From contig CAMAUC010000007.1 in assembly GCA_945861265.1 (NCBI GenBank), forward strand, positions 1-64,000: a stretch of DNA of 64,000 bases. Direction: 5' to 3'. Below the pieces are notes generated by a model, which worked only from the letters and a program-made list of their open reading frames with translations, ran no database searches and had not been told where the DNA came from. The position numbers and the translations under genes are program-made. This DNA comes from Rhizobium sp. Q54 (lineage in GTDB: Bacteria > Pseudomonadota > Alphaproteobacteria > Rhizobiales > Xanthobacteraceae). This document shows positions 38,172-63,809 of the stretch, piece by piece. How positions within the stretch are numbered: position 1 is the stretch's first letter; every line of letters starts with the position of its first letter.

Positions 38172-38202
38172 AAAATGCCGGCCGTCGCGCCGGCATTTTT
38201 TA
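38172..38202 (+). terminator. Terminator after infA
   Basis: AAAATGCCGGC cgtcgc GCCGGCATTTT TT. Confidence 0.85.
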
Positions 38203-39030
38203 TGCGTACGCCCGTGCCGCCCGATCCACGACCTCGTCGGTGATGACCCTGAATCCGGAGAGTGTGCAGGGACCGAACGAGGTGACGATGGCGACGTCGG
38301 TGGCGTCGCGCCCGCGCGCCATCAGGATGCGGCCGATGCGCGGGACATTGTGGCGAGCATCGAAGGTGTACCAGCGGCCGCCGAGAAAGACCTCGAACCA
38401 GGCGCTGAAATCCATCGGCGCCGGATCGCGCGGCACGCCGATATCGCCGAGATAGCCGGTGCAGTAGCGCGCCGGAATATTCATGCAGCGGCACAGCGCG
38501 ATGGCAAGATGCGCGAAGTCGCGGCAGACACCGCGCCGTTCTTCATTGGCGTCCCATGCCGTCTTCATTGGATTGGCGTGCTGATAGCCGAAAGCGATGC
38601 GCTCGTGCGTGTAGTCGACAATGGCCTGAACCAGCGGCCAGCCTTTTTGCACGCCGCCGAACAGCGACCAGGCCGTGTTCGACAATTTATCGGTTTCGCA
38701 ATAGCGGCTGCCGAGCAGGTAGACCAGCACATCGACCGGCAGATCCTGCAACGCATGCTGTTCGGCATGCGGCGCGACAATGTCGTGCTCGCCCGAATCC
38801 CAGACGGTGAAATCGGCGGAGAACGTCGTGCGGCCGGCTGGCGCGGTGATGACGTGGCAGAAGTTTCCGAACGTGTCGTGATAGGTGTTGACCGGAATGG
38901 TCGGGTCCATCGCGATACGATCCTGGGTCACCAGGTCGCCGACACGCGACGAATGCACACTCAGTTGCAGGATCATCGGCGTCGGTTGCGGACACTCGTA
39001 GGAAATTTCATAGCCGGCGCGGATATGCAT
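38200..39030 (-). CDS. Transglutaminase-like family protein (TG-1)
   Basis: RRGVCRDFAHLAIALCRCMNIPARYCTGYLGDIG...FSAWFEVFLGGRWYTFDARHN. Confidence 0.92.
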   Translation of the reverse strand: MHIRAGYEISYECPQPTPMILQLSVHSSRVGDLVTQDRIAMDPTIPVNTYHDTFGNFCHVITAPAGRTTFSADFTVWDSGEHDIVAPHAEQHALQDLPVDVLVYLLGSRYCETDKLSNTAWSLFGGVQKGWPLVQAIVDYTHERIAFGYQHANPMKTAWDANEERRGVCRDFAHLAIALCRCMNIPARYCTGYLGDIGVPRDPAPMDFSAWFEVFLGGRWYTFDARHNVPRIGRILMARGRDATDVAIVTSFGPCTLSGFRVITDEVVDRAARAYA

Positions 39031-39186
39031 CGAAACTCTTGCCCCACGTTCTGGAGGTTACCGAAGGCTGGATAAGAGTCTTTCGGCGACAAAGTTCCGG
39101 CAAATTATTGTACGCATGGCAAGGCCGCTTGCGAAGCCGCCAAGTATGTCAATTGCTGCATTATTAAACGGCAGATGCCCTTAAAA

Positions 39187-40011
39187 TCAGGCAGCGTCCG
39201 GCGGTGCATCGGCGTCGTCGGTGATGACCTTGAAACCGGTCATGGTGTTGGGACCGAACGAGGTGACGATAGCGACGTCGGTGGCGTCGCGTCCCCGCGC
39301 CATCAGGATGCGGCCAAGCCGCGGCACGTTATTGCGCGGGTCGAAGATGTGCCAGGCGTCGCCGAGATAGACTTCCATCCAGGCGGCGAAATCGCCGGCC
39401 GCCCAGGGCTTCGGCGTGCCCATGTCGCCGAGATAGCCGGTGCAATAGCGCGCCGGAATATTCAGGCAACGGCACAACGTGATGGCCAGATGGGCGAAGT
39501 CGCGGCAAACGCCCTTGCGCTTCTTGTGGACCTCATAGGCGCTCATCGTTGCATCGGCGTCGTTGTAGCCGAAGGTGATGTGATTGTGCGCGTAGTCGCA
39601 GATCGCCTGCACCAGGCTCCAGCCGGCCGGCAAATGTCCGAACTGCGCCCAGGCGAATTCCGACAGGCGGTCTGTTTCGCAATAGCGGCTGCCGAGCAGA
39701 TAGATCAGCACATCCGGCGGGAGATCCTGCAAAGCGTGCTGCCGCGCGTGCGGCACCACCGGATCGACCTTGCCACTGTCCTGAATCAGGAAATCGGTGG
39801 TGATGCTCAATTGGCCTTTCGGCGCGGTGATGACGTGACAGAAATTGCCAAAGCCGTCGTGATAGGTGCGCGCCGGAATCGGCGGCGAAAACTTGATCTG
39901 GTCCCAGCTCAGGAGATCCGGCGTGCGCGACGGGTGCACGCTCAATTCCAGGATCATCGGGGTTGGTTGCGGGCAGTCATAGGTGATCTCGAAGCCCGCG
40001 CGGATTTTCAT
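39187..40011 (-). CDS. Transglutaminase-like family protein (TG-2, tandem paralog of TG-1)
   Basis: KGVCRDFAHLAITLCRCLNIPARYCTGYLGDMG...FAAWMEVYLGDAWHIFDPRNN. Confidence 0.92.
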   Translation of the reverse strand: MKIRAGFEITYDCPQPTPMILELSVHPSRTPDLLSWDQIKFSPPIPARTYHDGFGNFCHVITAPKGQLSITTDFLIQDSGKVDPVVPHARQHALQDLPPDVLIYLLGSRYCETDRLSEFAWAQFGHLPAGWSLVQAICDYAHNHITFGYNDADATMSAYEVHKKRKGVCRDFAHLAITLCRCLNIPARYCTGYLGDMGTPKPWAAGDFAAWMEVYLGDAWHIFDPRNNVPRLGRILMARGRDATDVAIVTSFGPNTMTGFKVITDDADAPPDAA

Positions 40012-40120
40012 ACAAACTCCATTACCCGCGCTAGCGATAAGCCAGCCGGGTGCATGTTAAGGGAACTTAAGGGTATAAAGTTCCATCGTAGCGGAGAATT
40101 CTGAAAATTGCGCGGTATTC

Positions 40121-40987
40121 TTATGCGCTTGCCGCGGCCACGCGAACCGCGACCTTCATGGCAATCTGGTCGGCCGAACGGCCAAACCAGCTGCCCGACA
40201 AGGGGATCGCGTGACGCGGGTCGTTGACCACAGCGACGCGGACCAGATTCTGGTTGCCGACCGTGCCGCTCGCCGGATCGAAGTCGACCCAGCCCGGACC
40301 GGGTACATAGACCTGCGCCCAAGCGTGCGTGTTGCCGCCATCGAGCACGGCCTCTTCGCCGTCGTCGTCACTCGGCAAATAGAGATAGCCGGAGACAAAC
40401 CGCGCCGCGAAACCGAGATGGCTCAAGGCCGCGATCATCAGCAGCGCGTGATCGCGGCAAGAACCGCTGGCGACCTTCAAGGTGTACTCGGGCGTCTGGA
40501 TGCCCTTCTGGTGGCGCGCGGCGTGTTTGAATTTGGTCTTGATGGTCTGTGTCATGCCGACCAAAAGCCCGTAGGTATCGGTGGTGCCGTCGGCGCGCAG
40601 GAAACCTTCGGCCCAGCTCTGCACACGCGGATGCGCCGGCGCGGGCGGCGCGACCGGTGGATGGTCGGTATCGCACGCAAAGGGAAAGACGCGGGCATGA
40701 TCGGCGATGTCGGCGGCGGCGAAATTCATCGCCGCATGATCGAGGCGGATGGTGCTTTCGAAGCGCAGCTCGGCGGCGCGATTGTCGAACTCGGCGGTGG
40801 CGACGTGATTGCCGAGATCGTCGCGGGTCCAGGACAGCCTGCAAGGAGTCGGCGCGATGGCCAGCTCGGTATCGAGAACGATCTGGTCGCCGTCGTCGCG
40901 GGGCCGCAGCATCATGCGATGTTCGCCAAAGGCGACCGGCTGACGGTAGTGGTAGGTGGTGACGTGCTTAATGACGAAAATCGGCAT
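40121..40987 (-). CDS. Transglutaminase-like family protein (TG-3)
   Basis: [52 protein letters not shown]...THAWAQVYVPGPGWVDFDPASG. Confidence 0.93.
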   Translation of the reverse strand: MPIFVIKHVTTYHYRQPVAFGEHRMMLRPRDDGDQIVLDTELAIAPTPCRLSWTRDDLGNHVATAEFDNRAAELRFESTIRLDHAAMNFAAADIADHARVFPFACDTDHPPVAPPAPAHPRVQSWAEGFLRADGTTDTYGLLVGMTQTIKTKFKHAARHQKGIQTPEYTLKVASGSCRDHALLMIAALSHLGFAARFVSGYLYLPSDDDGEEAVLDGGNTHAWAQVYVPGPGWVDFDPASGTVGNQNLVRVAVVNDPRHAIPLSGSWFGRSADQIAMKVAVRVAAASA

Positions 40988-41087
40988 TGCGGTCCCAAAT
41001 CGAGGTATTGTTATAGAAGCATATTCCATTCCACTGAAAGCTCGGCGTGCGCCGCTTCCGGACATTTGAACAGCAAAGAATTAACCA

Positions 41088-41915
41088 ATGGGTACGATTG
41101 AGCATAATCTACATCGCAACCCGGCCGGGCGGCTTCTGGCCGCCGACGAGCCAAAGCCGGTCACGGTCCACAATGCCGGCGGACGATCGCCGTTGCTGAT
41201 TGTCGCCGACCACGCCGGCAACCGAATTCCGCGCGCGCTCGGCACGCTCGGCGTGTCGGACAGCGAACGCGCCCGCCACATCGGTTGGGACATCGGCATC
41301 GCGCCTGTCTGCCGCCTCTTGGCCGATGCGCTCGACGCCTGCCTGATCCAGCAGAACTATTCGCGACTGGTGATCGACTGCAACCGGCCCCCGGGCTCGG
41401 AAACGTCAATGCCGGTCATCAGCGAACTGACGCCGATCCCCGGCAATATCGGCTTGAGCGAAGCGGACAAAGCCGCGCGCATCAGCGAAGTTTTCCAGCC
41501 CTACCATGATGCGATCGCCATCGAGTTGGACCGCCGCAAGCTAAGCGGCCTACCGGTGGCGCTGATTGCGATGCACAGCTTCACGCCCCTCTACAAAGGT
41601 GTGGCGCGGCCTTGGCATGCCGGCGTGCTGTACAATCGCGATGCGCGTTTCGCGCAACGGCTGCGGCTGCTGCTGGAGCAGGAGACGCATCTCGTGGTCG
41701 GCGACAACGAGCCGTACAGCGTCGATGACTTCACCGACCACACCATCCCGGTGCATGGCGAGCGGCGTGCGCTGCACCATATCGCCATCGAAATCCGCCA
41801 GGATCTCATCGGCGCGGAAGCCGGCCAGATCGAATGGGCCGAACGCCTGGCCCGGCTGCTGCCTGTCGCCTATCGGGAAAGCCTGGCTGCCGAGAATGCC
41901 GCACCCGGCCGCTGA
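41088..41915 (+). CDS. N-formylglutamate amidohydrolase family protein
   Basis: LIVADHAGNRIPRALGTLG, HIGWDIGIAPVCRLLAD, IAMHSFTP, HIAIEIRQDLI. Confidence 0.9.
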   Translation: MGTIEHNLHRNPAGRLLAADEPKPVTVHNAGGRSPLLIVADHAGNRIPRALGTLGVSDSERARHIGWDIGIAPVCRLLADALDACLIQQNYSRLVIDCNRPPGSETSMPVISELTPIPGNIGLSEADKAARISEVFQPYHDAIAIELDRRKLSGLPVALIAMHSFTPLYKGVARPWHAGVLYNRDARFAQRLRLLLEQETHLVVGDNEPYSVDDFTDHTIPVHGERRALHHIAIEIRQDLIGAEAGQIEWAERLARLLPVAYRESLAAENAAPGR

Positions 41916-41992
41916 TCGGCCGCCCCACAAAGCCCACATTGCCACCGGCTAGATTGGCGCTAGCATTGAGCGCCGAACAATCCGGGTGGGCC

Positions 41993-43486
41993 ATGAAAAC
42001 CGCTTCGCTGCTGCATGTCGTATTTGCCTTGCTGCTCACCGCCGGCACGGCGCTGGCGCAGGAGAAAGCTCCGGACAAGCCACCGGAGAAAGCTCAAGAG
42101 CAAAAGCGCGAGCCGGCGCAGAACATCCTGCGCCTGCTGCCCGCCGACGCGGTGAGCGAGCATTCGATCACGACCGCGCAAGGCAAGCTCACTTATACCG
42201 CGACCGCCGGCACTTTGGCGTTCTACGACCAATCCGGCAATCAGAGCGCCTCGGTGTTTTACACCGCCTACACCGTGAAGGGCGCCAACCGGCCGCTGAC
42301 GTTCGCGTTCAATGGCGGGCCGGGCGCGGCCTCGGCCTATCTGCATCTTGGTCTGGTCGGTCCGCGCATTCTCGATCTCGGACCGGATGGCCACGACGCA
42401 ACGCGCGCGACCTTGCGCGACAATCCGGAGACCTGGCTGCGCTTTACGGATTTAGTGCTGATCGATCCAATCGGCACCGGCTGGAGCCGCGCCGCGAGCG
42501 ACGCCAAGGGATTCTGGAGCGTGCAAAGCGACGCCAACGCCATGGCCAAGGCGATCTCGCTCTATGTCACGCACAATAACCGAAGCGGCGCGCCGAAATT
42601 CCTGCTCGGCGAAAGCTATGGTGGCTTGCGCGCGGTGAAGACGGCGCGCGCGTTGCTGCGCGATCAGGGCGTGGCCATCTCCGGTATCGTCATGCTGTCG
42701 CCGCTCCTGGAAGGCTGGCTCACCTTCGGCGACGACGGTTCGGCGTTGCGCGCGGCGCTGCAACTGCCGTCGCTGGCGGCGGCCGAACTCGAACGCAAGA
42801 AGACATTCTCGCTGGAGGCGCAACTCGCGGCGGAGAAATTCGCCATGAGCGAATACCTGACCACGCTCGCGGTGCGGCCGCCGCAAGGCGCCGCCGCCAA
42901 AGCCTTCTACCAGCGCGTCGCGCAGATGACCGGCCTGTCCGAGGACAACATCGCGCAATCGCGCGGCTTCGTGAACGACTTCGTAAAAAGCCTGCGCGTC
43001 GGCAAGGTCGTCAGCCGCTACGACGCCGACTTCGCCATCGACGACCCGTTTCCGGAACGGCGTTCATCGCGCGGCGGCGGCGACCCGATTCTCGACGGCG
43101 TCTCGCGCGCCTATGGCGGCGCCTTCGCCGACTATGCCCGCAACGAAATCGGCTTCAAGACCGAGATGACCTACGTCCTGCTCGCCAACGATATCAACGG
43201 CGCCTGGGACTGGCACGGCGGCCGCTTCCAGGTCAGCGCCGAAGACGACATCCGCACATTGCTGGCGTTCAGCCCGTCGTTCAAACTGATGATCGCGCAC
43301 GGCTACAGCGACATGGTCACGCCCTACGGCATGACGCGCTATGTGCTCGATCATCTGCCGCAAATCGGCGCGGCCGGCCGCACAAGGCTTAATCTCTATC
43401 GCGGCGGACATATGTTCTACATCGACGCCCAGTCGCGCAAAGCCTTCAGCGCCGACGCGGCGGCGTTCTTCCGCGGCGGCGAGTGA
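41993..43486 (+). CDS. S10-family serine carboxypeptidase-like secreted protein
   Basis: Signal peptide; FAFNGGPGAASAYLHLG, GESYGG nucleophile, C-terminal YRGGHMFYI. Confidence 0.9.
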   Translation: MKTASLLHVVFALLLTAGTALAQEKAPDKPPEKAQEQKREPAQNILRLLPADAVSEHSITTAQGKLTYTATAGTLAFYDQSGNQSASVFYTAYTVKGANRPLTFAFNGGPGAASAYLHLGLVGPRILDLGPDGHDATRATLRDNPETWLRFTDLVLIDPIGTGWSRAASDAKGFWSVQSDANAMAKAISLYVTHNNRSGAPKFLLGESYGGLRAVKTARALLRDQGVAISGIVMLSPLLEGWLTFGDDGSALRAALQLPSLAAAELERKKTFSLEAQLAAEKFAMSEYLTTLAVRPPQGAAAKAFYQRVAQMTGLSEDNIAQSRGFVNDFVKSLRVGKVVSRYDADFAIDDPFPERRSSRGGGDPILDGVSRAYGGAFADYARNEIGFKTEMTYVLLANDINGAWDWHGGRFQVSAEDDIRTLLAFSPSFKLMIAHGYSDMVTPYGMTRYVLDHLPQIGAAGRTRLNLYRGGHMFYIDAQSRKAFSADAAAFFRGGE

Positions 43487-43602: not shown

Positions 43603-44799
43603 TTGGATCTCGTCTTGACCGAGTGGCTGAGCGCCACTATCCGCTGGCTGCACGTCATTGCCGGCGTCGCCTGGATCGGCTCGTCGTTCTATTTCATTCA
43701 CCTCGATCTCAGCCTGAAGCCGCGCGACGGGTTGCCGTCCGGCGTCAAGGGCGAGGCCTGGCAGGTGCATGGCGGCGGCTTCTACCAGATGATCAAGTTT
43801 ATGCTGGCACCGGCCAAGATGCCGGACGAACTGACCTGGTTCAAATGGGAAGCCTATACGACCTGGCTGTCCGGCTTCGCGCTGCTGGTCGTGGTCTATT
43901 ATTTCAATGCCGAGCTGTTTCTGATCGACAAGTCGGTTCTCGACATGAGCGCGCCGGCGGCGGCGGGCATCGCCTTCGTCAGTCTGGCGGCGGCCTGGAT
44001 AGCCTATGAGGTGCTATGCCGCTCGCCGCTCGGCAAGCACGAAGTGCCGCTGGCGCTGGTCGGCTATGTGTTCCTGATCGCGCTGACCTACGGTTTCACG
44101 CAGGTGTTCAGCGGCCGCGGCGCCTTCACCCAGATCGGCGCGCTGATCGGCACGATCATGGTGGCGAATGTTTTCGTCATCATCATTCCGTACCAGAAGA
44201 AGACCGTGGCGGCGTTGATCGCCGCCAAGGACCCCGACCCCTATTGGGGCGCGATCGGCAAACAGCGGTCGGTGCATAACAACTACCTGACCTTGCCGGT
44301 CATCTTCCTGATGCTGAGCAACCACTATCCGCTTTTCTTCGCGACAAAATACAATTGGCTTATCGTCGCCATCGTGTTGCTGATCGGCCCGGTGATCCGG
44401 CATTTCTTCAATTCGCAACACGCCGGCAAGGGCAATCCGTGGTGGACCTGGGGCGTCGCCGCCGCCGGCATGATCGCGATCGCGCTGCTGTCGGGCGCCG
44501 GCCCGCGTACCACCAAGACCGGCGCGCTACCGGCCACTGTGAAATTCGCCGACGTGCAGAACATCGTCGCCGGCCGCTGCGGCATGTGCCATGCCAGCGA
44601 GCCGTTCTGGCCCGGCATCGCCACCGCGCCGAACGGCGTCAAATTCGACGATCCGGCCGAGATCAAGCGCCATGCCCGCATGATCGCGGTCAACGCGGTG
44701 ATGTCGAGCGCGATGCCACCGGGCAATGTCTCGGAAATATCGCCCGAGGAACGCCAGGTGCTGGCGGCCTGGATCGCCGCCGGCGCGCCGGATAAATGA
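43603..44799 (+). CDS. puuD: Urate hydroxylase PuuD (membrane urate oxidase with C-terminal cytochrome c), TTG start
   Basis: N-term TM domain WLHVIAGVAWIGSSFYFIHLD; C-term CxxCH motif RCGMCHA. Confidence 0.9.
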   Translation: MDLVLTEWLSATIRWLHVIAGVAWIGSSFYFIHLDLSLKPRDGLPSGVKGEAWQVHGGGFYQMIKFMLAPAKMPDELTWFKWEAYTTWLSGFALLVVVYYFNAELFLIDKSVLDMSAPAAAGIAFVSLAAAWIAYEVLCRSPLGKHEVPLALVGYVFLIALTYGFTQVFSGRGAFTQIGALIGTIMVANVFVIIIPYQKKTVAALIAAKDPDPYWGAIGKQRSVHNNYLTLPVIFLMLSNHYPLFFATKYNWLIVAIVLLIGPVIRHFFNSQHAGKGNPWWTWGVAAAGMIAIALLSGAGPRTTKTGALPATVKFADVQNIVAGRCGMCHASEPFWPGIATAPNGVKFDDPAEIKRHARMIAVNAVMSSAMPPGNVSEISPEERQVLAAWIAAGAPDK

Positions 44800-45683
44800 C
44801 CACGATCTCGCTCGACCAACTCAATGCCCTTAGCAAAGCCGACTTCACGGCGGCGCTGGGCGACATCTTCGAGCATTCGCCCTGGGTCGCTGAGGCGACC
44901 GCCGGCAAGCGGCCGTTCGCGACGTTGGCGGCGCTCCATGAGGCGATGACGGCGGCGGTGTACGCGGCGACCGATGCGGCGAAACTGGCTTTGGTAAAGG
45001 CGCATCCCGATCTTGCCGGCAAGGCGGCGCGCGCTGGCGCTCTGACCGCGGATTCGACCAACGAGCAGGCCAGCGTCGGCCTCGACCGCCTGAGCGAGGC
45101 GGAGTTTGCCCGCTTCACCACGCTCAACGACAGCTATCAGGCCAAATTCGGCATCCCCTTCATCGTCTGCGTCCGGCGGCATACCAAGGATTCAATCCTG
45201 AACGAATTCGAACGGCGTTTGGCGCAGGACAAAGCCGGCGCCATCGATACCGCGCTTGACGAAATTTTCCGCATCGCCGCGCTACGCCTCGACCAGCGGG
45301 TAACCGCGCCGGTTCGTCTGCCTTTGCACGGCCGTCTGTCGACGCATGTACTCGACACCCATGGCGGCCTGCCGGGCGAGAACATACCGATCGAATTGTG
45401 GGAATTGTCGCGCGACGCGCCTGCGCGTTTGTTGTTGCGCACCGTGACCAACAAAGACGGCCGTACCGACACGCCGCTTATAGCCGGACGCCCGGTGCCG
45501 ATCGGCGCCTATGAACTGCGCTTCGCGGTCGCCGGCTATTTCAAAAGCCGGGGCGCCACGTTGGCCGAGCCGCCGTTTCTCGACATCGTGCCGATCCGCT
45601 TTGCCGTTGCTGAGGCGGAAGGCCATTACCATGTGCCGCTGGTGATGACGCCGTGGAGCTACGCCACCTATCGCGGCAGTTAG
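44796..45683 (+). CDS. Bifunctional OHCU decarboxylase / 5-hydroxyisourate hydrolase
   Basis: N-term LNALSKADFTAALGDIFEHSPWVAE (OHCU decarboxylase); C-term LSTHVLDTHGGLPG...YHVPLVMTPWSYATYRGS (HIU hydrolase signatures); overlaps puuD by 4 bp. Confidence 0.92.
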   Translation: MTTISLDQLNALSKADFTAALGDIFEHSPWVAEATAGKRPFATLAALHEAMTAAVYAATDAAKLALVKAHPDLAGKAARAGALTADSTNEQASVGLDRLSEAEFARFTTLNDSYQAKFGIPFIVCVRRHTKDSILNEFERRLAQDKAGAIDTALDEIFRIAALRLDQRVTAPVRLPLHGRLSTHVLDTHGGLPGENIPIELWELSRDAPARLLLRTVTNKDGRTDTPLIAGRPVPIGAYELRFAVAGYFKSRGATLAEPPFLDIVPIRFAVAEAEGHYHVPLVMTPWSYATYRGS

Positions 45684-45745
45684 ACACGCCGGAAAAGGAA
45701 TAGCCTGCGGCAGCCAACAGCTACCGCAGGCCGTATTGTCAGCGC

Positions 45746-46669
45746 TTAGAAAGCCTGGGTGATACCGAGAACCCACGAGCTTTCCACGGTGCAGCAGGTG
45801 CCTGCGCCGGCGGTCGGATCGATGCCGAACTTGTTCTTCCAGTAACGGTACGCGCCGTAGACCGACGTCATGCCGGAGCGATAGCCGGCCACCTTGCCGA
45901 CATCGAGCGCCAGCTTCGGTGAGACGAAGTATTCGGTCTTGGTGTCGAAGGCGTTCACCGACGGATTGCCAGCGCCCTTCGGGCCCTGGATGCCATACAG
46001 GGTGCTGAAGGTCAGCGGCAGCGGAACGATGGCGTCAAGCGGCTGGGTGTACATGCCCTCGAGGCGCCAGGTAGTCCTGAAGTCGGTGTCGCCGCCATTC
46101 AGCACATAGAAAGCGTTATGGCTGTATTCCTTGTAGGCTTCGACTGCCAGCGAGAACGTGCCCTTATAGGGCAACGCGAAATCGAAATTCAGACCGGCGA
46201 CCATGCTCTTCTTCGCTGGCTGAAGCGCGTTGTTCTCGGTGTTCAGGTCGGCGCCGACAATGAACGACACATTGGTGAGCGGTCCGACGGTAAAGGCTCG
46301 GGTGTTGAACAGCTGATTGAAGCCGAGCGTGCTGCGGAACAGACCATAGATTTCGGTCGCCCCCTGGCTGCCCGCGGTGCCGCCAACCGGATCGCGGCTG
46401 TCGGACTTCAGCCAATCGACGGTGAAGAAGTTGGTGCCATAGGCCCACACGTCGAAGTGGGTGAAGTTGAGAACGTTCTTGGCGGTCTGCGACACGCCCG
46501 GATCGGTGGCGGTGAAGTAATACGAATAGCCGATCGAGTTTTCGTTGACGAAGAAGAACGGCGCCGGCGCGACCGGCTTCAAGGCCTTCACCGGCATATC
46601 GGCAGCCGAAGCGGCGCCGCTTGCCGTGACCGCGAGCAGCGCGGCGAGCGAAAGAAATCTTGCGAACAT
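45746..46669 (-). CDS. Outer membrane channel, Tsx-like nucleoside-channel family (tentative)
   Basis: Signal peptide; GYSYYF...NFTHFDVWAYGTNFFTVDWLKSD; C-terminal ITQAF beta-signal. Confidence 0.65.
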   Translation of the reverse strand: MFARFLSLAALLAVTASGAASAADMPVKALKPVAPAPFFFVNENSIGYSYYFTATDPGVSQTAKNVLNFTHFDVWAYGTNFFTVDWLKSDSRDPVGGTAGSQGATEIYGLFRSTLGFNQLFNTRAFTVGPLTNVSFIVGADLNTENNALQPAKKSMVAGLNFDFALPYKGTFSLAVEAYKEYSHNAFYVLNGGDTDFRTTWRLEGMYTQPLDAIVPLPLTFSTLYGIQGPKGAGNPSVNAFDTKTEYFVSPKLALDVGKVAGYRSGMTSVYGAYRYWKNKFGIDPTAGAGTCCTVESSWVLGITQAF

Positions 46670-46840
46670 TTTTTATCCCCCAAATGGTGACGACCAGACA
46701 GATGCAGTCGTCACAAATCTTTCGCAGCTTTTGCGACGCGGCAAAGCCTTAAGATTCCTCCCATTTTGGGATTGTTTTTGGCGTCGGCGCTAAAAATGCG
46801 TCATTTCGACCGAAGCGGACGTTGGCGCACAGCCAACCAG

Positions 46841-46881
46841 AAATATTGAAACCGCCCGTGTCACCGACAGATTCAATATTT
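46841..46881. promoter_or_regulatory. 10-bp perfect inverted repeat in divergent intergenic region (possible operator)
   Basis: AAATATTGAA (46841-46850) / TTCAATATTT (46872-46881). Confidence 0.4.
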
Positions 46882-47257
46882 TTCCATTGAAAACAGCGGC
46901 CCCGTCTTTCACCGATCCGCTGACAAATGCCGACTATTGCTTGGGCATGGCCGATTTCGGCCAACGCCGAATCCGTTTTCGCTGTCACATTCCGGCAACG
47001 CACCTTTGGTCGTGACCCGCGATGCGGAAGAGAATTTACGCCACGCGACTCGTTCGCTAACTGCACGACATTAAAGAGTTTTTCTGGCTGGCCCGGCGCG
47101 TGGCGCGACAAGAGGCAGTGCCTGCTAATAATTCATGGCTTCAATTGGCGGGCGATTTGGCACACTATTGGCTTGTCATATTGGGGCGACATCGCTTGCG
47201 GGACAAACGTCAGGGCAAGCCTGTCAGCCGCCGTCAATCGTTTGAGGCAGCGTATCT

Positions 47258-50829: not shown

Positions 50830-50865
50830 TCTTCCCCCCTCGTTCTGATAAACGGAGTTGAAACG

Positions 50866-51945: not shown

Positions 51946-51999
51946 TGGGAAATGCGCGGGGGGCTGGCGACGCGCCTCCCGCGCTCCTTCTCAATGCAC

Positions 52000-53343: not shown

Positions 53344-53399
53344 CCTCTTGCTCTCCGACAAGACTATAGTGCCTTGCAAGCACAGGGCCAGAGCGCGTC

Positions 53400-54218: not shown

Positions 54219-56935
54219 CATACATCGTCAACGGCAAGCCCTTCGCTCAACAGCCCGCCGCCGGGCAATGCCTGCGCACGTTCCTGCGCGCGCTCGGTCA
54301 TTTCGGCGTCAAGAAAGGTTGCGACGCCGGCGACTGCGGCGCCTGCACCGTCTATCTCGACGGCGAGCCGGTGCATTCATGCCTGATGCCGGCCTTCCGC
54401 GCCGAAGGCCGTGAGGTCACAACCATCGAGGGCCTCGCCAAAGGCAACGAACTGCATCCGATGCAACGCGCCTTCCTCGACGCGCAAGGTTTCCAATGCG
54501 GCTTCTGCACCGCCGGCATGATCATGACCGCGGCGTCGCTCAACCAAGCGCAGCGCGCCGATCTGCCGCGCGCGCTCAAGGGCAATCTGTGCCGCTGCAC
54601 CGGCTATCGCGCCATCGAGGATGCGATCACCGGCAAGCGCAACGCCGAGGATGGACACGCCGGCTGCGGCGTCGGCCATAACGTACCGGCACCGGCAGGT
54701 CCGGATGTCGTCACCGGCAAAGCGCGCTTCACCCTCGACGTCGCGGTCGAGGGTTTGCAGCACATCAAACTGTTGCGTTCGCCACATGCACATGCGCGCA
54801 TCCGGTCGATCGACAAAACGGAAGCGCTGAAAGTGCCAGGCGTCGTTGCGGTGCTGACACATGAGGACGCGCCGAAGGTCGGCTTTTCCACCGCGCGCCA
54901 CGAAGTGCGCGAGATCGACGCCGACGACACCATGGTGCTCGATACGGTCGTGCGCTACATCGGCCAGCGCGTCGCCGCCGTGGTGGCCGATAGCGAGGCG
55001 GCGGCCGAGGAAGCCTGCCGCCGGCTGAAGGTCGATTACGACATTCTGCCCGCGGTGTTCGACCCCGAACAGGCGATGCAGCCCGGCGCGCCGCTCCTGC
55101 ACGGTGACAAGGGACCGGAAGCGCGCATCTACGATGCTAAGCGCAATCTCATTCATGCGGTCAACAGCTCATTCGGCGACGTCGAATCGGGCTTTGCGAA
55201 GGCCGACGCTATCCATGAGGGCACCTATTTCGTGCCGCGCGTGCAGCACGCGCATCTCGAGACATTGTGCGCCATCGCCTGGCTCGACGCCGGCGGGCGG
55301 CTGAACATTCGCTCCAGCACGCAGGTGCCGTTCCTGACCCGGCAGGAGATCGCGCGTGTGTTCGGACTTGCCGAAGAAAAAGTGCGGGTGTTCTGCGAGC
55401 GCGTCGGCGGTGGTTTCGGTGCCAAACAGGAAATGATGGTCGAGGATATCGCCGCGCTGGCGGCGCTGAAAACCGGCAGGCCGGTGAAGATCGAATTCAC
55501 CCGCGAGGAGCAGTTCATCGCCGCGACGACGCGCCATCCGATGAAAGTGCATGTCAAGATCGGCGCAACGCGTGACGGCACGCTCAACGCGATGCAGATG
55601 CACGTCGTGTCGAACACCGGCGCCTATGGCAATCATGGCGCGCCCGTTCTGGAACATGCCTGCTCGGAATCGATCAGCGTCTATCGCTGCCCGAACAAGA
55701 AAGTCGACGGCTACGCCGTCTACACCAACACGGTGCCGGCCGGCGCATTTCGCGGCTACGGTCTGCCGCAGACTTCGTTCGCGGTGGAATCGGCGATCGA
55801 CGAAGTCGCCCGCGCCATCGGCATGGACGCGCTCGAATTCCGCCGCCGCAACGTGGTCAAGCGCGGCGAGCCGATGATCGGCGCGCATGTCTCGCCTGAC
55901 GACGTGATCTACGGCAGCTATGGGCTAGACCAATGCCTCGATCTGGTTGAGGCGGCGATGCAAAGCGATTCACCGGGCGCCACGCTGCCGCCGGATTGGC
56001 TGATCGGTCAGGGCACGGCGCTGACCATGATCGACACGGTGCCACCGGGCGGACACTACTCCGACACTTATATCTGGCTCGAGGCCGACGGCACTTATGC
56101 GATGACCATCGGCACCGCCGAATTCGGCAATGGCACCACGACCGTGCATCAGCAGATCGCCGCCACCGTACTCGGCGCGACGCCGTCGCGGATCAGGCTA
56201 ACGCAATCGGACACCGATTACGGCGGCCATGACACCGGCGCCTATGGCTCGACCGGCACTGTGATTGCTGGCCGGGCGACGCAGAAGGCGGCCGAGGCGC
56301 TACGTGACACGCTGCTCGACTTCGCCGCGAAGCACAGCGGAGCGGCGCGGACCGACTGCACGCTCACCGACGGCGCCATCGTCTGCGGCGGCAAACCGAT
56401 CGCGCTCGCCGACTTGCGGGAAGCCGCGAATGTCGCCGGCGTGGTTCTGTCCGCGCACGGCACGACCAACGGCATTCCGCGCTCGGTCGCCTTCAACGTG
56501 CAGGGCTTCCGCGTGGCGGTGAACCGCGTCAGCGGCGAAATCAAGATATTGAAAAGCGTCCAAGCCGCCGACGCCGGCACCGTCATCAACCCGATGCAAT
56601 GCCGAGCCCAGGTCGAAGGCGGCGTGGCGCAGGCACTGGGTGCTGCTCTGTTCGAGGAAATCGTCATCGACGAGAACGGCCGCGTCAGCAATCCGAGTTT
56701 CCGCCACTACCGCATTCCGGGATTTGCCGACATTCCGCGCACCGAGGTGCTGTTCGCCGAGACGTCCGACACGCTCGGTCCGTTCGGCGCCAAATCGATG
56801 AGCGAGAGCCCGTATAATCCGGTCGCCGCGGCACTCGGCAACGCCATCCGCGACGCCACCGGCGTGCGCTGCTATCGGCTGCCGTTCAAGCCGGACCGCG
56901 TTTACGCGGCTTTGACGGCCGCTATAACCGGCTAA
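54215..56935 (+). CDS. Xanthine dehydrogenase, fused [2Fe-2S] small subunit and molybdopterin large subunit
   Basis: [42 protein letters not shown] fused to Mo domain with [14 protein letters not shown] overlap. Confidence 0.92.
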
Positions 56936-57095
56936 CCAAACAGGCAGGAACGGCTGGCTAATCACGATTTTGCGCGGCTAAATGGCTGCGCGGCCCGGAA
57001 CTTGCATGATTATTGGGCAGCGATTTGGCGGTAACGGCGGTACACTCGCAGCCGGTCAATCGAGCGCTGCCACGGTCAACAGAGTAATGTAACCA

Positions 57096-60000
57096 ATGTC
57101 GATCCTCGCCGGCCTGCACCACGTCACCCGCTATATCTATGACAAGCCGATCGCCCTCGGGCCGCAGATCGTGCGACTGCGGCCGGCGCCGCATGGCCGT
57201 ACGCGAATTCCGAGCTATTCGCTCAAGGTGAAGCCCGAACAGCATTTCGTGAACTGGCAGCAGGACCCGCACGGCAACTGGCTGGCGCGTTTCGTCTTCC
57301 CGGAAAAGACCAGCGAATTTTCGGTGACGGTCGATTTCCTCGCCGATCTCGAAGTCGTCAATCCGTTCGACTTTTTCGTTGAACCGTTTGCCGAACAGTG
57401 GCCGTTCGAGATGCCGGCCGACATCAAGGAAGATTTGCTGGCCTATGTCGATCCGGAACCGGCAGGTCCCCTGCTGCGGACGCTGATCGATTCGATTTCG
57501 CGCGAGAAGCGCAACACCGTCGACTTCCTGGTCGAGCTCAACCAGCGCATCCAGTCGATCGTCAAATATATCGTGCGTCTCGAACCGGGCGTGCAGACGC
57601 CGGAGGAGACGCTCGTCTCCGGCTACGGTTCATGCCGCGACTCGGCCTGGCTGCTGACGCAGCTGTTGCGCCATATCGGTCTGCCGGCGCGTTTCGTCTC
57701 CGGCTATCTCATTCAGCTGAAGCCGGACATCAAATCGCTCGACGGCCCGAGCGGCACCGATCACGACTTCACCGATCTGCACGCCTGGACCGAAGTCTAT
57801 CTGCCCGGCGCCGGCTGGATCGGTTTCGATCCGACGTCGGGCCTGTTGTGCGGCGAAGGTCATCTGCCGGTGGCGGCGACGCCGCATTACCGTTCCGCCG
57901 CGCCGATCACCGGCATGGTCGAACCGAGCGGCGTCGATTTCGAATTCGAAATGAAGATCGAGCGCATCGCCGAACGGCCGCGCGTCACCGCGCCGTTTTC
58001 GGACGACGCCTGGGCCGCGCTCGACGCGCTCGGCGAGAAGGTCGATGCCGATCTCATCGCCGGCGACGTGCGCCTGACCATGGGCGGCGAGCCGACCTTC
58101 GTGTCGATCGACGATTATCAATCGGCGGAATGGAACACCTCGGCGCTCGGACCGCAGAAACTCATCCGCGCCAACGATCTGATCAAGCGCCTACACGATC
58201 GCTTCGCGCCCGGCGCGCTGGTGCATTACGGCCAGGGCAAATGGTATCCCGGCGAGGAACTGCCGCGCTGGGCCTACTCATTATACTGGCGGCGCGACGG
58301 TCAGCCGGTCTGGCAGAATCTCGAATTGATCGCGCGCGGCCGAACCACGCCGGAGCCGACCTCGCTCGACGCGCAGAACTTCGCTGAAGGCGTCGCCGCG
58401 CGGCTCGGGCTGAAAGGCGAATTCGTGCAGCCGCTTTATGAAGACCCGGCCGACCGTCTGCTCAAGGAAGGCGCGCTGCCGCCGAATATCGATCCGGGCA
58501 ATCCGAAGCTCGACGATGCTGCCGAGCGCGGCCGCATCCTGCGTACCTTCGAGCGTCACCTCACCCATCCGACCGGCTTCGTCTTGCCGGTGCAGCACTG
58601 GAACGCTTCGGCGAAAGCCGGCTGGCTCAGCGAGCTGTGGCAGACGCGGCGCGGCCGGCTGTTCCTGATCGCCGGCGATTCGCCGGCCGGCTTCCGCCTG
58701 CCCTTGAGCCAACTGCCCTATTTCGTCGCCGCCGATTATCCGCACCTGGTGCCGGGCGATCCGATGGACGAGCATCCGCCATTGCCGGCGGCCGCCATGG
58801 TCGCAGCCCCGCCGCGCGCCGACAAACAGCCCGCCGCCGAAACTCTGGTCGCGCAGGCTGGTCCGCGCACGCTGGCAGGGTTACAGGCCTCCGGCATTCC
58901 GGTGCGCACCGCGCTGACTTTGGAAGTGCGCGACGGCCGTCTGTGCATCTTCATGCCGCCGACCGAGCGGCTGGAGGATTACCTCGAACTGCTGGCGGCG
59001 GTCGAAGCGACCGCGGCGGCGATGAAGCTGCCGGTCCATATCGAAGGCTATACGCCGCCGGTCGATCCGCGTATCGACGTCATCCGCGTCACGCCCGATC
59101 CCGGCGTCATCGAAGTCAATGTGCAACCGGCCTCGAGCTGGCGCGAAGCGGTCACCATCACGCGCGGCCTCTACGAAGACGCGCATCACTCGCGGCTCGG
59201 CACCGACAAATTCATGATTGACGGCCGTCACACCGGCACCGGCGGCGGCAATCACGTCGTGCTCGGCGGCCGCAATGCCGCCGACAGTCCGTTCCTGCGC
59301 CGGCCCGATCTGCTCAAGAGCCTGCTGATCTATTGGCAGCGCCATCCGTCATTGTCCTACCTGTTCTCCGGCCTGTTCATCGGTCCGACCAGCCAGGCGC
59401 CGCGCATGGATGAAGCGCGCACCGACATGTTGTACGAACTCGAAATCGCCTTCGCAAAAGTGCCGGCGCCGGATAAAGGCGAAGCACCGCCGCCGTGGCT
59501 GGTCGATCGTCTGTTCCGCAACATTCTGGTCGATGTCACCGGCAATACGCACCGCACTGAAATCTCCATCGACAAATTGTTCTCGCCGGACAGCGCCACC
59601 GGGCGCCTCGGCCTCGTCGAGTTCCGCGCTTTTGAAATGCCGCCCGATGCGCGCATGTCGCTGGCGCAGCAATTGCTGTTGCGCGCGCTGGTCGCCAAAT
59701 TCTGGCGCGCACCGCTCCACGGCCCGCTGGTGCGCTGGCAGACCGCGCTGCATGACAAATTCATGCTCGAGCATTTCGTCTGGGAAGATTTCCAGGACGT
59801 GCTGCGCGATCTCAAAAGCTCAGGCTACGACTTCGACCCGGTCTGGTTCGACGCGCAGCGCCAGTTCCGCTTCCCGCGCTACGGCGCGGTCGAGCATGCC
59901 GGCGTCAAGATGGAAATCCGCCACGCGCTGGAGCCGTGGCATGTGCTCGGCGAGGAAAACACCGCCGGCGGCACCTCGCGCTTTGTCGACTCCTCGGTCG

Positions 60001-60413
60001 AGCGCTTGCAGATCAAGGTCGAGGGCTTCGTCGAAGGCCGTCACCGCGTCACCTGCAACGGCCGCACGCTGCCATTGCGTTCGACCGGGCGCTCCGGCGA
60101 ATTCGTCGCCGGCGTCCGCTTCAAGGCGTGGAAGCTCGCCTCGGCGCTGCACCCGACGCTCGAAGTCGATGCGCCCCTCACCTTCGATATCGTCGATACC
60201 TGGAGCCGGCGCTCGCTGGGCGGTTGCGTCTATCACGTCGCGCATCCTGGCGGCCGCAATTACGAGACATTCCCTGTGAACTCCTACGAAGCGGAGGCCA
60301 GACGGCGGGCGCGCTTCGAGGATATCGGCCATACTCCCGGCCGCTTCGATCCGCCCGAATCGGCGCGCTCGCTCGAATATCCGACGACGCTCGACCTGCG
60401 GCGCGCGCCGTAA
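57096..60413 (+). CDS. Transglutaminase-DUF2126 protein (1105 aa)
   Basis: N-term transglutaminase [30 protein letters not shown]...[25 protein letters not shown]2126 [35 protein letters not shown]. Confidence 0.93.
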
Positions 60414-60453
60414 CCGCCCTTCAACCGTATAGATCCCGGCAGCCGCACCGATA

Positions 60454-62940
60454 ATGCCAGCTCAACCCGACAGCCCCCGTGAATTCGACACCGGCGGCCT
60501 GGATCAGTTCGTGTCCGGCTACCGGACGCTGCCGGGCATTGTCGACGAGATGATGGACGGCGACGGCCGCGTGCGCGCGCACTGGAAGCCGCTGCTGTCG
60601 ATGCTGGCCGATCTCGGTCCTGAGGAAATCAACCGGCGCTTTGCCTCGGCCAACCGTTACTTGCGCGACTCGGGTGTGTTCTATCGCGTCTATGAGGACC
60701 CGGCCGGCGTCGAGCGGCCCTGGCCGCTCAGCCACATTCCGCTGCTGATCGATCCTTCCGAATGGAAGCAGCTTGAAGCCGGACTTATTCAACGTGCCGC
60801 GCTGCTCGAAGCCGTTTTGGCCGATGCCTATGGCCCCGGCCAATTGATCAAAGACGGCCGCCTGCCCGCCGCTTTGGTCGCTGGCAATCCCGAATATCTA
60901 AGACCGCTGGCCGGGGTCGAACCGCCGGGCGGATCGCATTTGCGATTTTACGCGGTCGATGTCGGCCGCGGGCCGGACGGGCGCTGGTGGGTGCTTGGCG
61001 ATCGCGCGCAGGCGCCAAGCGGCGCCGGCTACGCGATCGAGAACCGGCTGGCGCTGTCGCGCGCCATCCCGGACATCTACGGCAAGGCACGCGTCAAGCG
61101 CGTCGCGCCGTTCTTTCAGGCGTTTCAGGCCGAACTGTTTGAATACAACCGGCAGGACGATGCCCGCGTCTGCTTGCTGACGCCCGGGCCGATGAACGAA
61201 ACTTATTTCGAGCACGCTTATCTGGCGCGCTATCTCGGCCTGCTGCTGGTCGAAGGCGAAGACCTGATCGTGCGCAATGACGGCGTCTTCATCCGCACCA
61301 TATCGGGGCTGCGCCGCACCGAGGTGCTGTTGCGCCGCATCGACGCCGATTTCGCCGACCCGCTCGAACTCAATGCCGCTTCGCGTCTTGGCGTTGCCGG
61401 TCTGGTGCAGGCGGTGCGAGACGGCAAGGTGGTGATCGCCAACGCGCTCGGCGCCGGACTTGTCGAGGCCCGCGCCATGCTCGCTTTCCTACCGGCACTG
61501 GCGCCGCATGTGCTCGGCCAGGAACTGCTGTTGCCGAATGTCGCGACCTGGTGGCTCGGCCGCGCCGATGTGCGCGACGAGATTCTCGCCAAGCTCGACA
61601 GCATGGTAATCGCACCGGCTTTTGGCCCGGCTGGCGGCAGCCTCGGTTCCGAGCTGGACGACGTCCAACGCCGCGATCTGCTGCAAGCGATCCATGACCG
61701 TCGCATCGACTATGTCGCGCAGGAAGCGGTTACGTTATCGAGCACGCCGGTCTGGCGCGAGGGCAGATTGCAGCCGCGCCCATTCTCGCTGCGGCTTTTT
61801 CTCGCCAAGGTCGGCGACGGCTGGCAGGTGATGCCGGGCGGCTTCGTGCGCATCGCCGATAATCCGGACGCGCGCGCCATCAGCCTGCAAGGCGGCGACG
61901 CCACCGCCGATGCCTGGGTGCTGTCGGAAGGACCCGTGTCCGCCGTTACATTGTTGCCGGCGCCGGAACGGGTGACGATCCAGCGCGCGACCGGCATGTT
62001 GCCGAGTAGGGCCGCCGACAATCTCTTTTGGGTCGGCCGCTATGTCGAACGCGCCGAGGCGACATTGCGTCTGACGCGCGCACTGCTCAACCGCGTCGCC
62101 GATGCCGGCGACACCGCCGCGCCGATCGTCGCGGCGATTACCGACCTACTGCGGAGCTGGAGCGCCGCGCCGATCGATACCGGCGGCACGACGCCGGCCC
62201 TGGTGGCGCGTTCAGTGCTGACCGGCCGCGAATTCGACGGTTCGCTGCCGCGCCTGGTGTATTTCGCCCGCGCCGCCGCTTCCGTCATTCGCGAGCGCTT
62301 CTCGCCCGATGCCTGGCGCGCCATCGACGATCTGGTGGCGCTGATTGAGCTATCGCTGGCGCCCGGCCCGGTCGAGCGCGCCATGGTCGAGCGCGTCGAG
62401 GCGGCGCTGCGGATCATCTCGTCCTTCTCAGGCCTGGCGCAAGAGAATATGACGCAGCTGGCCGGCTGGCGCTTTCTCGAACTCGGCCGCCGCATCGAGC
62501 GCGCCTTGCAGACCTGTCGCTTCGTGCGCTGCTTCGCCGACGGCAGCGCGCCATCTGGCGGACTCGATGTGCTGCTGGAGCTTGCCGACAGCCAGCTCAC
62601 CTACCGGCAGCGTTATGTAATGATCGCCGCCAAGGCGCCGGTGATCGATCTGGTGATGCTGGACCCGAACAACCCGCGCTCGGTCGCCTTTCAGGTCGAC
62701 CGCATCGAGACGCATCTGGCGGCTCTGCCGAAAGGCCCGACGCCGGCCGGGCGCTTGACGCCGGTGCAGCAGATCGCCGCCTCGATCGCCACGCGCTTCC
62801 GCACCGCCGACGCCGGCAACATGACCGATGCGCAGATCATCGACGTCGAAGACGATCTGATGAAATTGTCGGAGGCGATTGCCTCGAGCTATCTAACCCA
62901 TATCGAGCGCTCGCAAACCGCGTGGGATGCGCAGTCATGA
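60454..62940 (+). CDS. Circularly permuted ATP-grasp (COG2308) fused to alpha-E domain (COG2307)
   Basis: N-term CP-ATP-grasp (PLSHIPLLIDPSEWKQLEAGLIQRAALLEAVLADAYGPG; MPGGFVRIAD); alpha-E start MLPSRAADNLFWVGRYVERAEATLRL near 61996. Confidence 0.93.
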   Translation: MPAQPDSPREFDTGGLDQFVSGYRTLPGIVDEMMDGDGRVRAHWKPLLSMLADLGPEEINRRFASANRYLRDSGVFYRVYEDPAGVERPWPLSHIPLLIDPSEWKQLEAGLIQRAALLEAVLADAYGPGQLIKDGRLPAALVAGNPEYLRPLAGVEPPGGSHLRFYAVDVGRGPDGRWWVLGDRAQAPSGAGYAIENRLALSRAIPDIYGKARVKRVAPFFQAFQAELFEYNRQDDARVCLLTPGPMNETYFEHAYLARYLGLLLVEGEDLIVRNDGVFIRTISGLRRTEVLLRRIDADFADPLELNAASRLGVAGLVQAVRDGKVVIANALGAGLVEARAMLAFLPALAPHVLGQELLLPNVATWWLGRADVRDEILAKLDSMVIAPAFGPAGGSLGSELDDVQRRDLLQAIHDRRIDYVAQEAVTLSSTPVWREGRLQPRPFSLRLFLAKVGDGWQVMPGGFVRIADNPDARAISLQGGDATADAWVLSEGPVSAVTLLPAPERVTIQRATGMLPSRAADNLFWVGRYVERAEATLRLTRALLNRVADAGDTAAPIVAAITDLLRSWSAAPIDTGGTTPALVARSVLTGREFDGSLPRLVYFARAAASVIRERFSPDAWRAIDDLVALIELSLAPGPVERAMVERVEAALRIISSFSGLAQENMTQLAGWRFLELGRRIERALQTCRFVRCFADGSAPSGGLDVLLELADSQLTYRQRYVMIAAKAPVIDLVMLDPNNPRSVAFQVDRIETHLAALPKGPTPAGRLTPVQQIAASIATRFRTADAGNMTDAQIIDVEDDLMKLSEAIASSYLTHIERSQTAWDAQS

Positions 62941-63809
62941 TCTACGACATTCGCCAGACCACAGCTTGCACTTATGCCTCGCCGGTGACGAACGCCTTTC
63001 ATGTGTTGCGCCAGACGCCGGTCAACCGTCCGGGGCAGCGCGTTCAGGTCTCGTCGTTGCAGATCGAGCCGGCGCCGGTGAGCCGGCGCGAGGGCCAGGA
63101 CTTCTTCGGCAACAGGCTGACCTGGATCGCGCTTGAAGACGCGCATGATACGCTGACGGTGAAAGTGTCGGCGCGGATTGCCATCGATGCCTTTGCGCTG
63201 CCGGCAAGCGCCCCCGCCTGGGAAGCGGTGCAGGAACAAGTGTTCGCTTCCGCCGACATTGGGCCGAGCGCGCCCGCGCATTTTCTGTTCGCCAGCCGCA
63301 TGGTCTCGCTCGATCCCGAAATCCGCGACTACGCACGCCAGAGCTTCCCGCCCGGCCGCGATATGCTGAAAGCCGCGAGCGAATTGATGCATCGGATCAA
63401 GACCGACATGGTCTACGAGATCGGCGCCACGTCGGTGACGACGACGCCGCCGATGTCGTTCGCCTTGCGGCGCGGCGTTTGCCAGGATTTCGCGCACATC
63501 ATGATTTCCGGCCTGCGCGGCATCGGCCTGCCGGCGGCTTATGTGAGCGGCTATCTGCGCACTATCCGCCCCGCCGGCGCGGCGCGTCTGCAGGGCGCCG
63601 ATGCGATGCACGCATGGGTGCTGGTCTGGTGCGGGTCCGATACCGGTTGGGTCGGCTTCGATCCAACCAACGACATGATCGCGTCGGATGAACACATCGT
63701 GCTGGCGATCGGCCGCGACTACACCGACGTTGCGCCGATGGATGGCGTGATCGTCGTCGCCGGCGGGCAGCACATCGACGTGTCGGTCAACGTCATTCCG
63801 GTCAGTTAG
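62937..63809 (+). CDS. Transglutaminase-like family protein (TG-5)
   Basis: RRGVCQDFAHIMISGLRGIGLPAAYVSGYL...MHAWVLVWCGSDTGWVGFDPTND; ATGA overlap with upstream gene. Confidence 0.93.
   Translation: MIYDIRQTTACTYASPVTNAFHVLRQTPVNRPGQRVQVSSLQIEPAPVSRREGQDFFGNRLTWIALEDAHDTLTVKVSARIAIDAFALPASAPAWEAVQEQVFASADIGPSAPAHFLFASRMVSLDPEIRDYARQSFPPGRDMLKAASELMHRIKTDMVYEIGATSVTTTPPMSFALRRGVCQDFAHIMISGLRGIGLPAAYVSGYLRTIRPAGAARLQGADAMHAWVLVWCGSDTGWVGFDPTNDMIASDEHIVLAIGRDYTDVAPMDGVIVVAGGQHIDVSVNVIPVS

Follow-up and report, generated by a model that had tools for sequence, protein, structure and literature searches.

A possible nitrogen-limitation-responsive extension of the CP-ATP-grasp/alpha-E/DUF2126/transglutaminase systems in Rhizobium sp. 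Q54

Introduction

Operons combining a circularly permuted (CP) ATP-grasp protein, an alpha-E protein and DUF2126 are widespread in bacteria, and to our knowledge their product has never been identified since they were predicted. Iyer et al. (2009) are said to have predicted an amidoligase or peptide-synthesis role for such CP-ATP-grasp/alpha-E/transglutaminase/DUF2126 systems, and Rv2566-Rv2569c of Mycobacterium may be among their relatives. We know of no enzyme activity shown to date for DUF2126, while known transglutaminases require the His of their Cys-His-Asp triad. In gamma-glutamylation pathways of the PuuA type, which serve here as an analogy only, an amide is formed at the expense of ATP and then hydrolysed in the use of amine nitrogen.

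PMC5666114 and PMC6376114 treat the CP-ATP-grasp/alpha-E/transglutaminase/DUF2126 combination as predicted amidoligase systems; the former reports induction of the Anbu operon under nitrogen limitation, and in the latter the only activity reported for the ATP-grasp family is phosphate release from ATP. In Burkholderia cenocepacia, operon I35_5080-83 is NtrC- and sigma54-dependent under nitrogen starvation, a dependence shared by the xanthine dehydrogenase, urate oxidase and urease genes (PMC5491218). In RloABC of Pseudomonas aeruginosa, an ATP-grasp protein acts together with an inactive transglutaminase-domain protein (PMC12239564).

Results

The window analysed here is a 64,000-nt stretch of Rhizobium sp. 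Q54 (Xanthobacteraceae; positions 1-64,000, forward strand, of contig CAMAUC010000007.1, assembly GCA_945861265.1), in which purine genes separate two gene groups, arms A and B (Table 1). All genes named in a first-pass annotation (five transglutaminase-fold domains, DUF2126, CP-ATP-grasp/alpha-E, an FGase-family protein and an S10-like protein) were recovered by Pfam at the positions it had given, with five PF01841 matches across the two arms, each above cut-off, and its family assignments proved correct.

Table 1. Features of the module, the purine island and candidate sigma54-like sites in the window.
Feature	Position	Strand	Evidence or location
TG1, transglutaminase-fold, Cys-Ser-Asp	38200..39030	-	PF01841 69 bits
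TG2, transglutaminase-fold, Cys169-Ala209-Asp224	39187..40011	-	PF01841 73 bits
TG3, Bact_transglu_N + Transglut_core, Cys-His-Asp	40121..41065	-	PF01841 above cut-off
FGase-family amidohydrolase, divergent from TG3	41088..41915	+	PF05013 169 bits
S10-like alpha/beta hydrolase	41834..43486	+	PF00450 (Peptidase_S10) 55 bits
Purine island between arms A and B	43603..56935	.	profile matches
Membrane urate oxidase	43603-44799		profile match
OHCU decarboxylase/HIU hydrolase	44796-45683		profile match
sigma54-like site TGGCACACTATTGGCT	47158..47173	+	100 bp upstream of ABC transporter gene
BMP-type ABC transporter	47258-51945		profile match
Amidohydrolase	52000-53379	-	profile match
FAD + Mo/Fe-S subunits, xanthine-dehydrogenase-type enzyme	53400-56935		profile match
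Candidate sigma54-like site CGGCCCGGAACTTGCA	56991..57006	+	105 bp upstream of DUF2126
Transglutaminase fused to DUF2126	57096..60413	+	PF09899 1310 bits, PF01841 68, PF08379 89
Circularly permuted ATP-grasp fused to alpha-E	60454..62940	+	PF14403 (CP_ATPgrasp_2) 460 bits, PF04168 (Alpha-E) 226
TG5, Bact_transglu_N + Transglut_core, Cys-His-Asp	62937..63809	+	PF01841 above cut-off

The CP-ATP-grasp and alpha-E domains of arm B are both present, and a transglutaminase (TG5) lies within the operon. Arm B is an established predicted amidoligase system, with the same families and the same kind of operon as the systems attributed to Iyer et al. Compared with the latter, as described in PMC5666114 and PMC6376114, the module is extended by a pair of His-less transglutaminase-fold proteins (TG1 and TG2, the TG-A clade), by TG3 and by the FGase-family protein. 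The reported overlap of the last two genes of arm B is real (ATG 62937-62939 and TGA 62938-62940 form an ATGA junction from the ATP-grasp/alpha-E gene into TG5), and the TG5 start is better placed at ATG 62937 than at GTG 62922. The DUF2126 part matches PF09899 over its full length (positions 3-826 of 826), and complete Cys-His-Asp triads are found in the N-terminal transglutaminase of the DUF2126 protein and in TG5. DUF2126 itself is a putative amidoligase. In tests of this fold, hhalign gave a weak match to GCS2, a profile search against the PDB returned no match to a glutamine-synthetase-type fold, and an AlphaFold model from four usable sequences reached a pLDDT of 39.8. The ATP-grasp/alpha-E protein has a PDB relative in 3n6x; the structure model of alpha-E was of low confidence (62.8) and yielded no PDB match.

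Arm B was rejected as an Anbu operon, since no Anbu gene was found at arm B or in the 25 kb of partly annotated contig beyond position 64000, where a search had been proposed. The genome does have a canonical Anbu operon at another location, with Anbu on contig C16. The genome search with PF00227 gave a single match (on C10) and missed the C16 Anbu, which falls just below the Pfam cut-off yet matches solved Anbu structures. This operon shares homologous ATP-grasp, alpha-E and transglutaminase genes with arm B, whereas in arm B the ATP-grasp and alpha-E domains are fused, DUF2126 is added and Anbu is missing.

In arm A, TG1 and TG2 are paralogues (66% identical) that carry Ser and Ala209, respectively, at the position of the catalytic His, and thus lack the Cys-His-Asp triad of an active transglutaminase-fold enzyme. 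The His was missing from all 86 members of the TG-A clade examined (86/86), in which Cys169 and Asp224 are invariant, whereas it was kept by 19/19 more distant relatives (29-43% identity). It is likewise retained by the nearest solved relative of TG2, a Cytophaga transglutaminase-like protein (PDB 3isr, E 6e-41). Clade-specific conserved residues (H26, R226, R231, R234 and W211) arose alongside the loss of the His. Both TG1 and TG2 are under purifying selection, with dN/dS well below 1 (S10 in L003/L004, DUF2126, and TG1 in L004/L010 were left out of the dN/dS analysis as misaligned or paralogous matches). Because the catalytic His is missing throughout the clade, a role of TG1/TG2 as ordinary transferases or hydrolases is not supported; such roles had earlier been proposed for all the transglutaminase-fold proteins. 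TG3, like TG5 and the DUF2126 N-terminus, has a complete triad. The TG3 start is probably an internal ATG near 40981, judging from the alignment. An ATP-grasp protein paired with an inactive transglutaminase-domain protein recalls RloABC; however, RloB is a membrane protein, RloC is RimK-like, and the families differ from those found here.

The protein divergent from TG3, first described as N-formylglutamate-amidohydrolase-like, passed the broad PF05013 profile (169 bits) but scored 46.3 bits against the HutG cut-off of 278.75 (TIGR02017), and is therefore a member of the FGase family that does not pass as an N-formylglutamate deformylase, or true HutG. Its PDB relative is 2odf, and its gene adjoins TG-A/TG3 again in other genomes. 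The S10-like hydrolase, by contrast, is a neighbour outside the conserved module. Its true start is probably Met 54, 53 codons into the ORF, where a signal-peptide-like sequence begins (judged by eye from the translation), and the protein is probably secreted. Its gene lies beside arm A in near relatives only and did not turn up around the paired FGase and TG-A genes in L011, L015 and L017. S10 was accordingly rejected as a part of the module, and its suggested function as a trimming enzyme is unsupported.

The purine island, within which a plus-strand ORF (51952-53409) was discarded as spurious, had been regarded as a bystander; the way in which an orthologous operon is regulated, however, points to nitrogen limitation as a link (PMC5491218). 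This operon, I35_5080-83, encodes DUF404/407, DUF403, a transglutaminase and a second, large transglutaminase protein corresponding to DUF2126, as in arm B. The comparison locus of B. cenocepacia (L217) has the same gene order as I35_5080-83 and carries an NtrC-like box and, 138 bp upstream, a strong sigma54 site; TG-A was not found in it. The co-regulated purine genes of B. cenocepacia are located elsewhere, whereas here they lie between the arms. They are not adjacent to the module in L013, L057 and L187 either, so that the link between purine genes and module rests on regulation in another organism together with local synteny. In the window, TGGCACACTATTGGCT is a strong match (6/7 scored positions) and is kept in all four syntenic genomes. 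CGGCCCGGAACTTGCA is a poor consensus match, of which CGGCCC-N5-TTGC is present in 6/6 loci compared. Over all DUF2126 operons of the class, enrichment of sigma54-like sites was marginal (p = 0.045). A further site upstream of the urate oxidase gene was kept in 1/3 relatives only and is therefore not relied on. The published data on the matching operon suggest, by analogy, NtrC/sigma54 control of the module.

The two arms had been connected by proximity and family only, and co-occurrence across genomes had been named beforehand as the comparison that could undo the connection. When this was run, TG-A and DUF2126 occurred together in 17 genomes of the class versus 8.7 expected (size-stratified), a number reached in 0/20,000 permutations, with shared ancestry not factored in. 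Moreover, alpha-E accompanied TG-A in 25/26 genomes, and the arm A - purine genes - arm B synteny was kept in L207, L208 and L209. In the distant genomes L013, L057, L144 and L187, TG-A and arm B families are contiguous. The link thus survived, and the two arms are parts of a single, widely distributed system. It is very improbable that they are separate systems lying by chance near the same purine genes. Most TG-A loci examined are without DUF2126 within 10 kb, and the two families are apart in most class genomes, as separate systems would be; against this, their co-occurrence exceeds the effect of genome size, DUF2126 is present in 17/18 of the genomes yielding TG-A loci, and TG-A directly adjoins DUF2126 in L013, L057 and L187 and the alpha-E operon in L144.

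Discussion

Our preferred reading, held tentatively and at somewhat short of even chances, is that arms A and B together make up an extended CP-ATP-grasp/alpha-E/DUF2126/transglutaminase system responsive to nitrogen limitation, which in this lineage surrounds genes for purine uptake and catabolism that belong to the same nitrogen-scavenging programme. Substrate, direction of the reaction and the role of TG1/TG2 we infer as follows. The ATP-grasp/alpha-E and DUF2126 proteins would act in the cytosol, using ATP to couple an amine with an amino acid or peptide. TG3, TG5 and the DUF2126 N-terminus, with their full triads, and the FGase-family amidohydrolase would transfer or cleave this amide, by which nitrogen could be trapped for later release. 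TG1 and TG2, which share the fold but not the catalytic His, would most likely have an accessory role in binding the substrate or conjugate. PuuA-type pathways differ in using other ligase and hydrolase families, and the module here is without amine oxidation genes.

Alternatively, in line with the first-pass annotation and the reading attributed to Iyer et al., the two ligases might build a peptide or link one to proteins, and transglutaminase-fold enzymes would transfer or remove it, whatever the nitrogen supply. The families are identical to those of predicted peptide-synthesis systems, and one conserved cluster holds two ligase-like and several transglutaminase-fold proteins; yet neither a tag nor a target protein is known, TG1/TG2 are without the catalytic His, and tagging alone does not predict that the matching operon is controlled by nitrogen starvation (PMC5491218), which leaves this explanation rather unlikely. 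A different question is whether TG1/TG2 might still be enzymes, in which a residue gained by the clade (e.g. H26 or R226) activates Cys169 for a changed Cys-based reaction instead of binding. The invariance of Cys169 and Asp224 (86/86), the clade-specific residues that accompany the loss of the His and the low dN/dS would all agree with this, but the need of known transglutaminases for the triad His, which is established knowledge, makes us regard it as doubtful. Returning to the extended nitrogen-responsive system, we consider quite unlikely its fullest form, a nitrogen-starvation pathway for an amide conjugate in which the His-less clade that keeps Cys and Asp is a conjugate carrier or performs new Cys-based chemistry.

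For these widespread operons, nitrogen limitation is a condition under which to seek the product of the system, co-occurrence and linkage lengthen its parts list by TG-A, TG3 and FGase, and the conserved transglutaminase clade lacking the catalytic His poses a biochemical puzzle. With this condition, the longer parts list and the puzzle in hand, a long-standing question therefore becomes directly testable.

Gene content of the two arms

All genes named in the first-pass annotation were found, each above the Pfam cut-offs. The genome (3.75 Mb, 133 contigs) is closest to Hyphomicrobiales of the Pseudolabrys type, and its TG2 shares 98% identity with the TG2 of an uncultured Rhizobiales MAG. The five transglutaminase-fold domains were borne out, with PF01841 present in TG1, TG2, TG3, the N-terminus of the DUF2126 protein and TG5, as was the tight operon structure of arm B, the last junction of which is the ATGA at 62937-62940. 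The purine genes between the arms encode a membrane urate oxidase, an OHCU decarboxylase/HIU hydrolase fusion, a BMP-type ABC transporter and a xanthine-dehydrogenase-type enzyme. The Amidohydro_1 protein is possibly a purine deaminase of this island (a plus-strand ORF at 51952-53409 is spurious, overlapping the real minus-strand gene). The 307-aa protein, which is kept in some relatives and had no match in Pfam or NCBIfam, could be an outer-membrane channel.

Features of the two arms and the genes between them
Feature	Position	Strand	Remark
TG1	38200-39030	minus	arm A
TG2	39187-40011	minus	arm A
TG3	40121-41065	minus	arm A
FGase-family gene	41088-41915	plus	arm A
S10 gene	41834-43486	plus	
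Purine genes	43603-56935		between the arms
307-aa protein	45746-46669	minus	signal-peptide-like start; between urate and transporter genes
Amidohydrolase	52000-53379	minus	Amidohydro_1, 196 bits; among genes between the arms
TG + DUF2126	57096-60413	plus	arm B
CP-ATP-grasp/alpha-E	60454-62940	plus	arm B
TG5	62937-63809	plus	arm B

Arms A and B belong together

Co-occurrence was counted across an even sample of 192 genomes of the class, in which members of TG-A (the clade of TG1 and TG2) were defined by at least 49% identity to TG2. DUF2126 was present in 29 of these genomes and TG-A in 26, and the two occurred jointly in 17, spread over 12 family labels. Size-stratified over the 177 genomes with a listed size, 8.7 joint genomes were expected, and none of 20,000 permutations (kinship ignored) matched the 17 observed. 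Alpha-E occurred in 25 of the 26 TG-A genomes (18.7 expected; 4/20,000 permutations, kinship again ignored). Moreover, DUF2126 was found in 17 of the 18 genomes that yielded TG-A loci, two of these 17 being labelled Acidobacteria or Bryobacter. On a contig labelled Dehalococcoidia (L012, JAGQHB010000043), TG1 is 72% identical to that of the window, which probably reflects mis-binning or a recent transfer.

Loci from other genomes or contigs (L-numbers) also contain genes of both arms in contiguous order: FGase, TG3, TG1, TG3-like, DUF2126, CP-ATP-grasp/alpha-E and TG5 in L013; TG-A, DUF2126, CP-ATP-grasp/alpha-E and TG5 in L057; TG-A, CP-ATP-grasp, alpha-E and TG3-like in L144; and DUF2126, TG-A-like, CP-ATP-grasp, alpha-E and TG5 in L187, which belongs to a different class of the same phylum. 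FGase adjoins TG-A, with or without TG3, in L014, L016, L018, L019, L036 and L148. Synteny across both arms and the purine genes is kept in L207, in L208 (where TG1 and TG3 are missing) and, within the reach of the stretch, in L209 with L007. Because co-occurrence, DUF2126 in the genomes with TG-A loci, contiguous clusters and synteny agree, the link between the arms, earlier drawn from proximity and family only, holds and is strengthened by four tests. The S10 carboxypeptidase, previously counted as part of the module, lost ground: as far as observed, both its gene and the purine genes adjoin the arms only within this lineage.

A transglutaminase clade without the catalytic His

The Cys-His-Asp triad is present in TG3, TG5 and the DUF2126 N-terminus, and the corresponding positions read Cys-Ser-Asp in TG1 and Cys-Ala-Asp in TG2, whose Cys is Cys169. 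Cys and Asp are kept in all 86 TG-A sequences from related loci and His in none (75 Ala, 10 Ser, 1 Cys), and 31 matches from a phylum-wide search show the same pattern, this set sharing with the 86 the window's own proteins and probably a few others. His is kept in 19 more distant relatives (29-43% identity) and in PDB 3isr; one relative at 44% identity has Asn. This weakens the view of TG1 and TG2 as ordinary enzymes. Since both are under purifying selection (dN/dS of 0.05-0.20 between orthologues) and the clade has conserved residues of its own (including H26, R226, R231, R234 and W211), the loss of His looks like remodelling rather than decay.

Possible links to nitrogen limitation

When Burkholderia cenocepacia H111 is starved of nitrogen, its cluster I35_5080-83 (DUF404/407, DUF403, a transglutaminase and a large transglutaminase protein) shows a strong dependence on NtrC and sigma54; the regulon to which it belongs also includes urease and xanthine dehydrogenase as well as a urate oxidase cluster (PMC5491218). 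The gene order of I35_5080-83 recurs in L217, from another B. cenocepacia strain, where it is followed by further CP-ATP-grasp, alpha-E and TG5 genes and where the large protein is a DUF2126 protein 56-61% identical to that of the window. The sole strong sigma54 site in 20.5 kb of L217 (AGGCACGTTCCTTGCA) precedes the first match by 138 bp, and an NtrC-like box (GCACC-N5-GGTGC) is found 79 bp before this site. Strong sites also precede the operon on Enterobacter (L218) and Caballeronia (L219) plasmids. In L218 (Enterobacter roggenkampii, NZ_CP116251.1), the complete CP-ATP-grasp, alpha-E, DUF2126, CP-ATP-grasp and transglutaminase set adjoins an arsenate reductase gene on a 91 kb IncFII plasmid, indicating that the system can travel on plasmids. 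A putative zinc metallopeptidase with its own upstream sigma54-like site lies within the Caballeronia operon (L219:5972-7033, minus).

In the window, TGGCAC-N5-TGGCW precedes the ABC transporter gene by 100 bp (in 4/4 syntenic genomes) and CGGCCC-N5-TTGC precedes DUF2126 by 105 bp (in each of the six loci compared; L013 keeps it although its upstream gene differs). The latter site matches the sigma54 consensus weakly, and sites of this kind before DUF2126 operons show only marginal enrichment across the class, so that the case for sigma54 control here is suggestive. Other pointers from the literature agree with a nitrogen link: nitrogen limitation upregulates Anbu (PMC5666114) and raises PP2685-2687, one of them a transglutaminase-like protein (PMC3325844), in Pseudomonas putida, and DUF403/404/407 tracked urea genes in marine metagenomes (PMC3597751).

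A second, Anbu-type system

Anbu, for which a search had been suggested earlier, was not found at arm B but turned up elsewhere in the genome, on contig C16, where a transglutaminase gene is followed by one for a 248-aa protein matching solved Anbu structures (E 8.7e-80). Free-standing CP-ATP-grasp and alpha-E genes lie on contig C109, the start of which shares ~140 bases with the end of C16, with a few mismatches and in the right orientation, so that the two contigs most likely hold one canonical CP-ATP-grasp, alpha-E, transglutaminase and Anbu operon split by the assembly. The genome thus holds both Anbu-type and DUF2126-type systems. Contig C63 encodes another transglutaminase-like protein, a BTLCP-type (Peptidase_C93) cysteine proteinase (L142:7960-8781, minus) that is separate from the module and unrelated to it.

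A candidate amide-conjugate system

The original observation is borne out, and the earlier interpretation holds in part: its link between the arms gained support, and its S10 protein and its view of TG1/TG2 as ordinary enzymes lost support. The best-supported reading is a cytosolic, nitrogen-limitation-responsive amide-conjugate system with predicted ligases. According to family predictions of their chemistry, the two ligases would join partners into an amide conjugate in the cytosol, which the transglutaminase-fold and FGase-family proteins may transfer or cleave; TG1 and TG2 would be His-less accessory proteins, and the whole would respond to nitrogen limitation. The system of the window is a variant of an already known kind, and its His-less clade and nitrogen link are reasons to follow it further.
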